Part shown: positions 2,068 to 6,974 of the stretch, one piece after another | Layout of the letters: each line of letters opens with the position of its first letter | Numbering within the stretch: the first letter of the stretch is position 1 | DNA from: Deltaproteobacteria bacterium | GTDB lineage: Bacteria > Desulfobacterota > Syntrophia > Syntrophales > Smithellaceae | DNA: 64,000 nucleotides | NCBI GenBank assembly: GCA_012729055.1 | Contig: JAAYDW010000053.1 | Coordinates: forward strand, 1 to 64,000 | Direction: 5' to 3' | Program-made: the position numbers and the translations under genes | Notes under the pieces: model-generated | The model's database searches: none | What the model was told of the DNA's origin: nothing | Seen by the model: only the letters and a program-made list of their open reading frames with translations

Positions 2068-3729
2068 ATGATACTCGGTATTGACGTCGGCGGAACCCAC
2101 ACGGATGCTGTTCTGGTTGAGAATTTTCAACTGATAAAGAAAGCCAAGGTGCTCACGAATCAGGCCAATATCATGGCCTCGCTGCTGGAAGCGGCCCAAA
2201 AGCTGATTTCCGGCGATAACATCAATAATATTGAACGTATCGTTTTGAGCACCACCATTTCCACAAACGCGATCGTCCAGAACAAAACCAATCGCGTCGC
2301 CATGGTGCTGCTCAGCGGCCCGGGGCTTTCCCCCGCCACGCTGGATCTGGGGAAGGACACATATTTTGCCCAGGGCTACGTCAACCACCGCGGCATACCC
2401 GTGAAGAACGTCAGCAGCCGGGAAATGGAGGAGATCAGCAACGATATTTCAGAAAAGTCCATCCGGCATATCGGCGTCGTGGGCAAGTTTTCCAGCCGCA
2501 ATCCGCAGCAGGAACGGGACGCCGCCGAGCTGCTCCAGAAAGAGTCGCGCATAATTTCTCTGGGGCACACTCTTTCCGGTCAGCTGAATTTCCCGCGCCG
2601 CATCGCCACCACATACCTCAACGCGGCCATCCATGACATTTACGATGCCTTTGTACACGATGTCCTCAAGTTCATCTCCAAAATCGGACCGAACATTCCC
2701 GTCTACATTCTGAAAGCGGACGGCGGAACGATCCTCATCGAGAAATCGCTGGAGTGTCCCGTGCAGACCATTCATTCCGGTCCGGCGGCGGGCATCATGG
2801 GCGTGCTGGCCACCGCCCGCATCAAAGAAGACGCCGTCGCGCTGGACATCGGCGGCACCACCACGGACATTTCCGTTTTCGCCGACGGCGTCCCTCTTCT
2901 GGAACCCTCCGGCGTCGCCATCGACGGCCGCAAAACGCTGATTCGCGGTCTTTACACCAAATCCATCGGCGTGGGCGGCGACAGCGTCGTTAAAATCGAA
3001 AAAGGTGAGCTGGTCATCGGTCCGCAGAGAGAGGGGCCGGCCGTTGCGCTGGGCGGACCTTTCCCCACCCCCACGGACGCCATGATCGTGGAAGGCATCG
3101 TCAGCTTCGGCGACGCCGAAAAAGCTAAAAAGGCCATTGCCGGACTGGCCCGGAAACTGGACCTCAGCGTCGAGGAAACGGCCCGGGCCATCGTGGAAAA
3201 AACGGCCGCCATCATTGCGGATCACGTCCGGGATATCCTCACGGAGATCAACAACAAGCCGGTTTACACCATTCATGAACTTCTGGAAGGGAAAATCATC
3301 AAACCCAAGATTCTTTATGTGGCGGGAGGTCCGGCGGCAATCGCGCCCGTCATCGCGGACAATCTGGGGTATCCTTATTCTATTCCGGAACATTCTGAAG
3401 TGTCCAACGCGCTCGGCGTCGCCATTGCCCGAACCACCGCCGAAATCACGATTCTGGCGGACACGGAAAAGCGCGAGCTCATTCTCAGCGAGGAAGGTAA
3501 AGTGGAGGAAATCCCCCGCAACTTCTCGCTGGCCGACGCGGTGGACACCGGCAAAAAAACCCTGCGGGAAAAAGCCGCCCGGATGGGCGCCCGGCCGGAA
3601 GACATCATTATGGAAGTCACCGAATCGCAGGAATTCAACATGATCCGAAACTTTTACACGACGGGGAAAAATATCCGCGTGAAAGTTCAGATAAAACCCG
3701 GACTGATCGCTTCCGGGACGGAAAGGTAA
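2068..3729 (+). CDS. Hydantoinase/oxoprolinase family protein (HyuA-like)
   Basis: 553 residues. The N-terminal hydantoinase_A-type nucleotide-binding segment opens MILGIDVGGTHTDAVLV, and a second phosphate-binding motif DIGGTTTDISVF follows about midway, marking the actin/hexokinase ATPase fold. Members couple ATP hydrolysis to opening hydantoin or 5-oxoproline rings or, in the acetone carboxylase group, to substrate activation. This protein is shorter than typical HyuA (about 650-700) and no HyuB partner follows, so the substrate cannot be inferred from the family alone. Start chosen at the ATG with AAGGA upstream. First gene of an operon with an HDAC-fold amidohydrolase (4-base gap) and a CMD-like protein. 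Confidence 0.85.
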   Translation: MILGIDVGGTHTDAVLVENFQLIKKAKVLTNQANIMASLLEAAQKLISGDNINNIERIVLSTTISTNAIVQNKTNRVAMVLLSGPGLSPATLDLGKDTYFAQGYVNHRGIPVKNVSSREMEEISNDISEKSIRHIGVVGKFSSRNPQQERDAAELLQKESRIISLGHTLSGQLNFPRRIATTYLNAAIHDIYDAFVHDVLKFISKIGPNIPVYILKADGGTILIEKSLECPVQTIHSGPAAGIMGVLATARIKEDAVALDIGGTTTDISVFADGVPLLEPSGVAIDGRKTLIRGLYTKSIGVGGDSVVKIEKGELVIGPQREGPAVALGGPFPTPTDAMIVEGIVSFGDAEKAKKAIAGLARKLDLSVEETARAIVEKTAAIIADHVRDILTEINNKPVYTIHELLEGKIIKPKILYVAGGPAAIAPVIADNLGYPYSIPEHSEVSNALGVAIARTTAEITILADTEKRELILSEEGKVEEIPRNFSLADAVDTGKKTLREKAARMGARPEDIIMEVTESQEFNMIRNFYTTGKNIRVKVQIKPGLIASGTER

Positions 3730-3733
3730 ATCC

Positions 3734-5044
3734 ATGGCCAAAAAAGAAAAGAAGACAGGTCTCATATTTTTCCCGGCATTCGACTGGGCCATATCCGTCA
3801 ATCATCCGGAGCGGGAAGAGCGGCTGCTCTACACGCAGGACCAGGTTTTTGAGGAAGGTCTGCTGGATTTTCCCAACATCCGGGAATATAAACCGGGCAT
3901 CGCCACTTACGCGGAGATCAACCGCTGCCACATCTGCGTTCCGAATCCGCAGAATCTGACGACCAACTCCCATCTCATTTCCGCCGGCGGCGCCATCACG
4001 GCCGCGCAAAAAGTTCTTTCCGGCGAGGTGGACAACGCCTTTGCGCTGGTCCGGCCGCCCGGCCATCATTCGATGCTCGTCGCCCACGGCGCGCGGGGAT
4101 TCTGCAACATCAACATCGAAGCCGTCATGATCGAATACATCCGCCACAAATTCGGCGTGAAGAGAATCGCCGTTGTGGACACGGACTGCCATCATGGCGA
4201 CGGCACACAGGATATTTACTGGAACGACCCGGACGTGTTGTGCATCTCCATGCACCAGGACGGGCGGACGCTTTACCCCGGCACCGGTTTCGTCGACGAC
4301 TTCGGCGGTCCGAACGCGCTGGGAGCGACGATCAACATTGCGCTGCCGCCCCGCACGTCGGATGAAGGATTTCTGTTTGCGCTCGACAACGTCATCCTGC
4401 CGATCCTGGATGAATTTCAACCGGAAATCATCATCAACTCGGCGGGTCAGGACAACCACTACAGCGATCCGATCACCAACATGAATTTCAGCGCCCAGGG
4501 CTACGCGCTTCTGAATGAAAAGCTTGCGCCCCACATCGCCGTTCTCGAAGGCGGCTACTCCATCGAAAAAGCCCTGCCCTACGTCAATGTCGGCATCATC
4601 CTCGCCATGGCGGGCCTCGACTACAGCCAGGTGCGGGAACCGGACTATGACGAGGAGCGCATCCGCCAGTCGCCGGAGGTCACGCGGCTCATCGAAGAGG
4701 AAGTCAAAAACGTGATGACCCTCTGGAAGAAAAAGAAAAACCTGAAGAAGCAGATCGTCGGCTCCGCCGCCTACATCCGCCGGGAGAAAAATATTTATTA
4801 CGACACGGACGACATCACGGAAAAGCAAATCGAAACGGTCCGCGTCTGCGAAGACTGCGGCGGCCTGGTCATGATCGAATCGGCCGCCGATACGGGCAAA
4901 AAGATCTTTGCCGTCATTCTGCCCAACAGCTGCTGTCCGGAGTGCCGCAAAAACGGCGAAATCTTCTTCGATCGGGTGAACGGATCGCAGTATAACCATG
5001 TCTATTTCCAGGACAGACAAAGAGACGTTTTCATCGTCAAATAG
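3734..5044 (+). CDS. Histone-deacetylase-fold amidohydrolase with C-terminal Cys motif
   Basis: 436 residues. The arginase/HDAC fold fills roughly residues 10-330 with an intact catalytic set: the His111-His112 charge-relay pair in RPPGHHS, Asp151 and His153 (DTDCHH) and Asp240 (GQD) as zinc ligands, and Tyr275 in GGY. Bacterial relatives deacetylate polyamines, acetoin-related or other small N-acyl compounds. Unlike AcuC, it carries a C-terminal extension with Cys372-x2-Cys375 and Cys401-x2-Cys404, a probable zinc ribbon. It starts 4 bases after the HyuA-like stop, so the two proteins probably act in one pathway, perhaps sequential hydrolysis of a cyclic and an acyl amide (inference). Confidence 0.85.
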   Translation: MAKKEKKTGLIFFPAFDWAISVNHPEREERLLYTQDQVFEEGLLDFPNIREYKPGIATYAEINRCHICVPNPQNLTTNSHLISAGGAITAAQKVLSGEVDNAFALVRPPGHHSMLVAHGARGFCNINIEAVMIEYIRHKFGVKRIAVVDTDCHHGDGTQDIYWNDPDVLCISMHQDGRTLYPGTGFVDDFGGPNALGATINIALPPRTSDEGFLFALDNVILPILDEFQPEIIINSAGQDNHYSDPITNMNFSAQGYALLNEKLAPHIAVLEGGYSIEKALPYVNVGIILAMAGLDYSQVREPDYDEERIRQSPEVTRLIEEEVKNVMTLWKKKKNLKKQIVGSAAYIRREKNIYYDTDDITEKQIETVRVCEDCGGLVMIESAADTGKKIFAVILPNSCCPECRKNGEIFFDRVNGSQYNHVYFQDRQRDVFIVK

Positions 5045-5057
5045 CCCGGGAGGCAAC

Positions 5058-5453
5058 ATGTCGGATCAGGATATCAGGGAAAGAACGCAGAAAACGGCGG
5101 AAAAACTTTTTTCCGGCGGCGCCAAACTGGAGCGCCCCTATTCCCTGTGGCGCGAATTTGACAAAGCGCTGGCCAACGACTTTTCACGCTTCATCACGGG
5201 CAATTTGTATTCCCGGGAAATCCTGACCCTTCAGGAACGCCAGATGGCGGCCTGCGCCATGCTGGCCGCGCTCAAGGCCCGGGATGAGCTGAAAGTCCAC
5301 GCCAACGCCGCCCTGAACGTCGGCTGCGATCCGCGCAAGCTGGTCGAAATTTTCTTTCAGACGGCAACGTATGCCGGCATGCCTGCGGTCAACGAAGCCC
5401 TGGCGGCTTTCAAGGAGGTTCTGCAGGCGCGGGGCGAATGGCCGCTTCGCTAG
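5058..5453 (+). CDS. Carboxymuconolactone decarboxylase family protein
   Basis: 131-residue all-helical protein with the CMD core (REILTLQERQMAACAMLAAL followed by HANAALNVGCDPRKLVEIFFQ). Relatives include gamma-carboxymuconolactone decarboxylase and AhpD-type reductases. The AhpD CxxC pair is absent here: the conserved region has only a single Cys in NVGCD. Start taken at the ATG at 5058, with GGGAGG in front, not at the longer frame from 4998 that overlaps the HDAC gene. Third gene of the HyuA-HDAC operon; the reaction is unknown. Confidence 0.8.
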   Translation: MSDQDIRERTQKTAEKLFSGGAKLERPYSLWREFDKALANDFSRFITGNLYSREILTLQERQMAACAMLAALKARDELKVHANAALNVGCDPRKLVEIFFQTATYAGMPAVNEALAAFKEVLQARGEWPLR

Positions 5454-5462
5454 ACATCAAGG

Positions 5463-6974
5463 ATGATCCTCTTGCGATCAAAGCGCCAATGGATATCGGA
5501 CGCCTTTCTTAAATTCAATTGGTTTGCCGCCCTCGTCGGAGCCGGCGTCACGGCGCTCGTTCTGGGCCGCCTGACCGAAACCCTCGCCGATCCCGACCTG
5601 TGGGGCTATCTGGCGTTCGGGCGCCTGTTCTGGGAAGGAAGAGGCTTCCCCTATGCCGACGTTTTCTCCTACACGCCCGTCAAGACCCTCTGGGTCTATC
5701 ATGAATGGCTCACGGGCGTTGTGTTTTATCCGCTTTATGAAACGCTGGGCGCAGCCGGCCTGCAGGGGTTGAAATACGCCGCGGGACTGGCCACCGCTTT
5801 TTTGATTTACAAAACAGCCCGGCTCCGGGGGGCGACCGCTCCGGCCGCGATCGCCGCGCTCGTTTTGGTCAGTCCCCTTTTCGGCTTCGCCTATTCGCCC
5901 GTCCGGGCCCAGATCTTTACCAACCTGTTTTTTGTCCTGACCCTGTATCTTCTTGAAGCCGCACACCTATCCGGTCGTCCCGCCTGTCTTTGGCGGCTGG
6001 CGCCTGTCTTCATGCTGTGGGCAAACCTGCACGGCGGATTTGTGGCGGGACTGGGCCTGATTGGAATGTTCGCCGCGGGCGCTTTCCTGTCCGGAAAAAA
6101 AGCCTGGCCCTACTGGCTTATTCTGTTTCCGACCTCCGCCGCGACGCTCATCAATCCCTACGGTCTGCAATACTGGATTTACCTCAAGGAAGCCCTCCTC
6201 ATGCCGCGGCCCGATATCGACGAATGGCATTCCGTCTTCTTTTCCCTGTCAAACGGCGAATTTACGTCAAACGTCATCATGTTCCTCATCCTGGTTCTGC
6301 TGGCCGTCCTGATGCTGTGGGCGGCGAAAACCCGCCGCCCGGCCGACATCATTATTTTGCTCGTGACGTCTTTTCTTGCTTTCCGGCACGTCCGGCATCA
6401 GAGCCTGTTTTTTCTGGCCATGGGCTGCCTGGCCCCGTTTTACTTCACGCAGGTCTGGACGCTCTTCAAGGCGTCTGGCTCCTGGACCGGCCTGCCAAAG
6501 GCGGCCCGCCGGATCACTGCCGTTTTGTTTGCCGGCCTTTTGCTCTTTTACGGAATCCGGTTTGCCGCCGGCGCTCCTTTTTCGCTGACGCTGCAAAACG
6601 TGTCCGGCGGCTACCGGGCAGACAACAATTATCCCACGGGCGCGGTCGCCTTTATCCGCAGCCACCGGTTGAAAGGCAATGTCCTTACGGAATTCAGCTG
6701 GGGAGAATATGTTCTCTGGAGCCTGCCTGCGTGCAGGGTGGCCATGGACGGCCGCTACGAAACCGTTTACACAAAGAAGTCCGCCGGAGAATATTTTGCC
6801 TTTGCCCGGGGCGAAACCGGCTGGCGCGAATACCTCGAAAAATATCCCCACACGTTGATTCTCTTCCGGCGGGAAAGTACGGCAAGCGCGCTGGTGCAGG
6901 AATTGCCTGACTGGGCGCCCGTCTATGCGGACGCGGATTGCATTTTGTTCATCCGCAAAAAACAGCCGATTTGA
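5463..6974 (+). CDS. Polytopic membrane protein, possible GT-C-type glycosyltransferase
   Basis: 503 residues with about ten to eleven hydrophobic segments and a C-terminal soluble region of about 110 residues. The first extracytoplasmic loop carries acidic residues in LADPDLWGYL and a downstream YHEW, reminiscent of the catalytic loop of GT-C (PMT/ArnT-like) lipid-linked sugar transferases. I do not recognise a specific family. It begins 9 bases after the CMD stop and may be the last gene of that operon, although its role there is not obvious. Confidence 0.6.
   Translation: MILLRSKRQWISDAFLKFNWFAALVGAGVTALVLGRLTETLADPDLWGYLAFGRLFWEGRGFPYADVFSYTPVKTLWVYHEWLTGVVFYPLYETLGAAGLQGLKYAAGLATAFLIYKTARLRGATAPAAIAALVLVSPLFGFAYSPVRAQIFTNLFFVLTLYLLEAAHLSGRPACLWRLAPVFMLWANLHGGFVAGLGLIGMFAAGAFLSGKKAWPYWLILFPTSAATLINPYGLQYWIYLKEALLMPRPDIDEWHSVFFSLSNGEFTSNVIMFLILVLLAVLMLWAAKTRRPADIIILLVTSFLAFRHVRHQSLFFLAMGCLAPFYFTQVWTLFKASGSWTGLPKAARRITAVLFAGLLLFYGIRFAAGAPFSLTLQNVSGGYRADNNYPTGAVAFIRSHRLKGNVLTEFSWGEYVLWSLPACRVAMDGRYETVYTKKSAGEYFAFARGETGWREYLEKYPHTLILFRRESTASALVQELPDWAPVYADADCILFIRKKQPI

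Follow-up and report, generated by a model that had tools for sequence, protein, structure and literature searches.

Known enzymes of the HyuA family use ATP to activate either a carbonyl or bicarbonate, working alongside a metal-bearing partner. In the caprolactamase CapAB the ATP site lies in CapA (Asp11 and Asp295) and the metal site in CapB, with a tunnel proposed between them; the D11A and D295A substitutions in CapA remove nearly all activity and CapB variants altered at the metal site are inactive (PMC8453981). Here, we describe a locus from a deltaproteobacterium of the Smithellaceae in which a gene for a short HyuA-like ATPase (hyuA) is followed on the forward strand by a gene for a zinc hydrolase of the HDAC fold (hdac). 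Both lie in a stretch of 64 000 nucleotides of contig JAAYDW010000053.1, hereafter the window, at positions 2068–3729 and 3734–5044. A sequence-only reading of this DNA had picked the locus as its best candidate for an undescribed system, and no account of a HyuA–HDAC pairing was found in the literature searched (open-licence PMC papers only); both protein families are known, and the pairing appears to be new as far as those papers show. We tentatively propose, at a confidence short of even, that HyuA and HDAC form one ATP-dependent amidohydrolase in which HDAC replaces the usual HyuB subunit.

The proposal rests in the first place on how faithfully the two genes accompany each other. Among 247 genomes sampled from the phylum of the window, searched at thresholds of E ≤ 1e-80 for HDAC and E ≤ 1e-50 for HyuA, HDAC was found in 63 and HyuA in 64, and all 63 HDAC genomes contained both; the extra HyuA (genome G238) starts at base 6 of its contig, and HDAC would be expected beyond that same end. 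In 56 of the 63 the genes adjoin, the matched stretches being separated by no more than 395 bases; in the remaining seven (G076, G109, G138, G165, G190, G219 and G235) they are unlinked and both are kept.

The module extends beyond the Desulfobacterota. A scan of named genome contigs with the HDAC alignment gave at least 568 relatives, some of which may be HDACs of other kinds; we retained the best 80 of these, which come from many deltaproteobacterial groups and also from Spirochaetes, Clostridium sp. Cult2 and Thiorhodococcus drewsii. In 62 of the 80 a complete or truncated HyuA adjoins HDAC, and for the remaining 18 the HyuA alignment was run against the entire genome. Fourteen of these have HDAC preceded by more than 1.8 kb of DNA without HyuA, and 13 of the 14 carry a short HyuA elsewhere, which is of full length in 12 and in two pieces at contig ends in G601. 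In the last four (loci L115, L118, L151 and L161) linkage cannot be judged, because the contig ends just upstream of HDAC; in three of them a separate contig carries a short HyuA.

When the HyuA of Clostridium served as query in a protein search, the matches listed included Thermoanaerobacter, Caldanaerobacter, Tepidimicrobium and Schnuerera. A second sample comprised 348 genomes from the phylum that contains Clostridium sp. Cult2; 138 of them have HDAC, 140 have HyuA and 136 have both. The two HDAC-only cases arise because contig ends cut them: an end piece of HyuA abuts HDAC at the contig end in G346, and HDAC itself reaches the contig end in G499. One HyuA-only genome (G569) has the gene at a contig end and two others (G297 and G317) carry longer HyuA-like proteins; the fourth is taken up below. 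HyuA lies directly upstream of HDAC, on the same contig and strand, in 131 of the 136. Four others (G318, G452, G480 and G510) have a match to part of HyuA 0.8–1.1 kb upstream, and in G572 the genes are about 3 kb apart on opposite strands, with an aldehyde ferredoxin oxidoreductase gene and a ThiF-family gene between them (L239:4071-9992). One in-frame stop each was seen in the otherwise open HyuA of G368 and HDAC of G513. Three longer HyuA-like proteins of 657–694 residues (L235:2243-4222, L236:402-2486 and L241:2366-4339) belong to another HyuA group; by eye, their genes lie near trimethylamine-methyltransferase-like genes and, in two of the three, also near a transporter-like gene.

When both samples are pooled, HyuA is present in 199 of 201 HDAC genomes, and the two proteins are therefore likely to be parts of one machine; the Fisher tests of co-occurrence ignore kinship. 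All 109 fetched stretches with both genes (106 distinct HDACs) have them on the same strand; the order where they are linked is hyuA–hdac, with a 4-base overlap as the most frequent spacing. A mirror-tree comparison of HyuA with HDAC in 75 genomes gave a correlation of 0.83, and 500 permutations reached no more than 0.20, with no control pair; we count this as weak support because shared descent yields the same result.

HyuA is a member of the ASKHA ATPases and, as the sequence-only reading had recognized, it is short: 553 residues, compared with 658–732 for the HyuA-type PDB chains that it matches, plus one of 1288. Hydant_A_N (PF05378) and Hydantoinase_A (PF01968) are both matched above cut-off by the window protein and are both found in all 78 members of the family alignment. 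The two phosphate motifs (DxGGTxTD and DxGGT) are intact, with Asp6, Gly8, Gly9, Thr10, Asp13, Asp260, Gly262, Gly263, Thr264 and Asp267 invariant in 78 of 78, and in a profile alignment Asp6 and Asp260 line up with the two phosphate motifs of 6yra_A, the chain named in the structure match as the caprolactamase of P. jessenii. A search with Foldseek using the AlphaFold2 (AF2) model (predicted local distance difference test, pLDDT, of 92.5) returned HyuA-type chains at ranks 1–7 with E values of 1e-32 to 3e-26, the next match being at 3e-8; the best PDB matches are chains of N-methylhydantoinase, acetone carboxylase, acetophenone carboxylase and caprolactamase. Loss of the HyuA C-terminal Pfam domain was considered as a defining trait of the short form and is unusable, because three longer HyuA-like controls gave no match to it either.

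The genome of the window (G000; 3.36 Mb, completeness rating 100%) has a single Hydantoinase_A match, which is the hyuA of the pair. The lack of HyuB noted from the sequence was borne out: Hydantoinase_B (PF02538) has no match in this genome, the only pair-bearing genome searched for HyuB, and the same search gives matches in six of 14 control genomes.

HDAC (436 residues) matches Hist_deacetyl (PF00850) with an E value of 6e-65, and the same domain is matched by all 85 members of its family alignment. Its AF2 model (pLDDT 91.2) has the bacterial deacetylases Kdac1 (E = 4e-29) and HDAH as its best PDB matches in Foldseek. His111, His112, Asp149, Asp151, His153, His154, Asp240 and Tyr275 are invariant in 85 of 85; from HDAC structures we take His111/His112 to be the His–His pair, Asp151, His153 and Asp240 the zinc ligands and Tyr275 the catalytic tyrosine. 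The family also has an invariant N-terminal stretch, an NSAGQDNH motif and a C-terminal domain of about 90 residues (approximately residues 345–436; positions 4766–5041, forward strand) which lies outside PF00850 and adopts a confident β-rich fold in the AF2 model. This domain is zinc-ribbon-like, with Cys372, Cys375, Cys401 and Cys404 invariant in 85 of 85; it has no Pfam match in the HDAC of the window, and Zn_ribbon_TFIIB is matched weakly by one of the 85 members (E = 0.0079). The genome of the window carries a single full-length protein of this HDAC type; two further HDAC matches, at other sites, are weaker.

Taken with the behaviour of the known HyuA-type enzymes, these features suggest how the pair might work. 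HyuA would activate the carbonyl of an amide or lactam with ATP, presumably by phosphorylating the substrate, and the activated substrate would be handed to the zinc site of HDAC, which would hydrolyse the amide and so stand in for HyuB. The two proteins would be in physical contact, possibly with the cysteine domain of HDAC serving for docking. The simplest reading is a swap of partners, since the constant partner is again a predicted metal hydrolase, although one of a different fold.

Several points weigh against this proposal. We infer both the contact between HyuA and HDAC and their common substrate. Since ordinary HDACs cut acyl-lysine without ATP, coupling to an ATP step has to be assumed in addition. 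HyuA has GGDS where its aligned relatives have GGGS, and phosphorylation of a lactam by HyuA may therefore not occur. Co-occurrence also has its exceptions: G604 has HDAC, but its HyuA match covers only part of a 703-residue frame, and G612, one of the four contig-end cases, is a doubtful instance with a partial HyuA match only. In the clostridial sample G353 has HyuA and no HDAC at the threshold, and the 353 bases left on its contig are unlike HDAC in any frame; it is a real HyuA-only exception unless the assembly is incomplete. At this locus (L238:1392-3415) the frame after HyuA looks like that of a different, membrane-type protein.

In the main rival explanation, HDAC would be an ordinary protein lysine deacylase and HyuA a helper that uses ATP to regulate, target or reactivate it and does not activate the substrate. 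We consider this rather unlikely. The HDAC core is complete, and among solved structures bacterial deacetylases are closest to it in fold; other ASKHA families serve as activators or reactivators of enzymes, and weak matches to families of that sort occur among the 78 HyuA members (MutL of the GlmL type in 62, BcrAD_BadFG in 43 and DDR in four). Acetyl-lysine is, moreover, the substrate of several bacterial classical deacylases, according to a survey of these enzymes (PMC11532494). However, the nearest relatives of HyuA are by far the substrate-activating HyuA-type chains and not the reactivases. To our knowledge, the known bacterial deacetylases of the HDAC fold need no such partner. HyuA was also considered as an activator of a 2-hydroxyacyl-CoA dehydratase; this was rejected, as only one such locus was seen and HyuA has no invariant cysteine in the 78-member alignment. 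In that locus, from the Spirochaetes (L116:3784-8002), the pair by eye follows two 2-hydroxyacyl-CoA dehydratase-like genes and an acyl-CoA ligase gene on the same strand.

Gene neighbourhoods bear on what the pair might act upon. Clustering of 181 stretches revealed no constant neighbour family, the maximum being 27 stretches (miaB), although not every cluster was identified; among 60 stretches from the phylum clustered together with the window, the only constant neighbours were shadow open reading frames (ORFs) of the pair. The commoner neighbours that could be identified are housekeeping genes (miaB, mutL, miaA, mutS, epmA, rlmN and murB), and for this reason the substrate is more likely to be a cellular component, such as a modified nucleotide, a protein side chain or a damaged cofactor, than a nutrient. 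In the phylum of the window the downstream genes vary by lineage and include epmA-like, rlmN, patatin-like and carboxynorspermidine-synthase-like genes; each of these families was checked on a single example, and the patatin-like and carboxynorspermidine-synthase-like ones scored below the curated cut-off.

One explanation built on these neighbours, which we regard as unlikely, would have the pair maintain or edit a modified base of tRNA, rRNA or DNA, the cysteine domain binding the nucleic acid while HyuA–HDAC opens or deacylates the base. The invariance of the zinc-ribbon-like domain fits this idea, as does the order mutS–hyuA–hdac–mutL, found on one strand, preceded by miaB and followed by miaA, in 17 of 40 clostridial stretches (L211, L213–L221, L223, L225, L227, L228 and L231–L233). 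These 40 were hand-picked from the 138, most of them on long contigs, and are therefore no random sample; murB lies upstream in five of them. MutL is present in 336 of the 348 clostridial genomes, and mutL directly follows HDAC in 35 of the 68 HDAC genomes with a listed place and in seven fetched ones, which makes at least 42 of 138. In some Desulfobacterota rlmN or epmA is directly downstream. The neighbours are nevertheless variable, plain housekeeping genes. EpmA occurs in 34 of 63 HDAC genomes against 38 of 184 others, but it is adjacent to the pair in only four of the 34 (G134, G161, G186 and G232) and its enrichment is confounded by kinship; we therefore rejected it as a required partner. 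A version involving turnover of cyclic t6A fared no better: in 80 clostridial genomes, synthase matches (E ≤ 1e-20, possibly including other ThiF-type proteins) were found in 20 of 25 with HDAC and 37 of 55 without, a difference of no significance (p = 0.30). Our own proposal can be narrowed in the same direction, to an ATP-driven amide-breaking machine, with the HDAC-fold enzyme in place of HyuB, that acts on a modified or damaged tRNA or DNA base. The position of the pair between mutS and mutL in many Clostridia would then follow from a role in translation and genome maintenance, but in so specific a form we rate the proposal as decidedly unlikely.

The sequence-only reading had suggested a pathway for a cyclic or acylated amide and had counted a third gene, encoding a carboxymuconolactone-decarboxylase-like (CMD) protein of 131 residues (positions 5058–5453, forward strand), as part of the system. 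The CMD protein matches PF02627 (E = 3e-16) and scores 69 bits against TIGR02425 (PcaC), for which the cut-off is 155.7. Co-occurrence of the three families across neighbourhoods had been set beforehand as the test that could refute the idea, and the outcome divides it: HyuA and HDAC stay together, whereas the CMD gene follows the pair in only six of 180 other stretches, which represent five different genomes. Besides the window, it adjoins the pair in L039, L041 (the same contig as L130), L042, L144 and L153. We therefore rejected CMD as a third component on the evidence of its position, CMD genes elsewhere in the genomes not having been searched; the conserved unit consists of two genes, HyuA and HDAC, and CMD is no part of it. 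Catabolism of a cyclic or acylated amide by the pair would accord with the family likeness of HyuA to the caprolactamase and hydantoinase subunits and with the CMD-like gene after the pair in five relatives. The claim of a catabolic pathway is nonetheless unsupported, since even the most frequent neighbour family is found in just 27 of the 181 stretches and the common ones identified are housekeeping genes. Each of the 201 HDAC genomes has, furthermore, a single HDAC of the pair type, and we regard a catabolic role as very unlikely. That the genes merely travel together without a functional link is hardly credible: tight spacing would move both as a unit, but both are kept though unlinked in seven genomes of the phylum and in 13 of 14 others.

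At the locus itself, the arrangement read from the sequence was confirmed in most respects. The three genes lie on the forward strand with gaps of four bases (hyuA–hdac) and 13 bases (hdac–CMD), and their families are as originally named, all with matches above cut-off. The suggestion that they share one promoter found no support: the only nearby σ70-like match on the forward strand (2047–2075) overruns the hyuA ATG at 2068, and the scan gave four sites compared with 2.6 ± 1.6 in shuffled sequences. An alternative in-frame start for hyuA is present at 1981; the conserved part of the family begins with the residues encoded from 2068. Directly upstream of hyuA, a small divergent ORF on the reverse strand (1693–1929) reads as an Ala/Pro-rich lipoprotein-like protein. 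Nine bases past the CMD gene, positions 5463–6974 of the forward strand encode a membrane-type protein of 503 residues with a weak TgpA_N match (E = 0.0039), and the gene run may extend into it. In a spirochaete locus the trimmed hyuA start is preceded, 31 bases away, by a small cysteine-rich ORF of 85 residues with CxxC pairs (L122:8042-8299).

HDAC and HyuA of this kind occur in a quarter of the sample from the phylum of the window (63/247) and in 40% of the clostridial sample (138/348), and a group of bacterial HDAC-like proteins thus gains a fixed partner, open to study by knockout, pull-down and assay. If the swap of partners is true, the HyuA engine is modular and able to power a hydrolase of a different fold. 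The pair may equally be viewed as a HyuA engine with a different hydrolase or as a bacterial HDAC with a dedicated ATPase, and it is best placed by comparison with systems of both kinds.

From the deacylase side, HdaH, Kdac1 and AcuC, which are bacterial classical zinc-dependent deacylases, share the fold and catalytic motifs of the HDAC of the pair, but this HDAC differs from them in its four-cysteine domain, its invariant N-terminal stretch, the NSAGQDNH motif and its near-constant HyuA. The main text of the deacylase survey contains neither the word hydantoinase nor the strings Desulfo-, Syntroph- and Geobacter (PMC11532494). From the ATPase side, HyuAB, OplAH and CapAB have an ATPase of the same family as our HyuA, by sequence and by predicted fold, with both phosphate-motif aspartates, and the mechanism proposed here for the pair likewise divides the work between an ATP subunit and a metal subunit (PMC8453981). 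They differ in that the genome of the window has no HyuB, the constant partner has the HDAC fold and the HyuA is shorter (553 residues). The acetone and acetophenone carboxylases, whose ATPase subunits rank with the best structural matches to HyuA, instead carboxylate ketones with a CapB-like metal subunit (PMC8453981). The 5-oxoprolinase PxpABC also combines a lactamase, probably a metal-dependent one, with separate ATP-hydrolysing proteins; it consists, however, of three proteins compared with two and is reported not to be similar in sequence to caprolactamase (PMC8453981).

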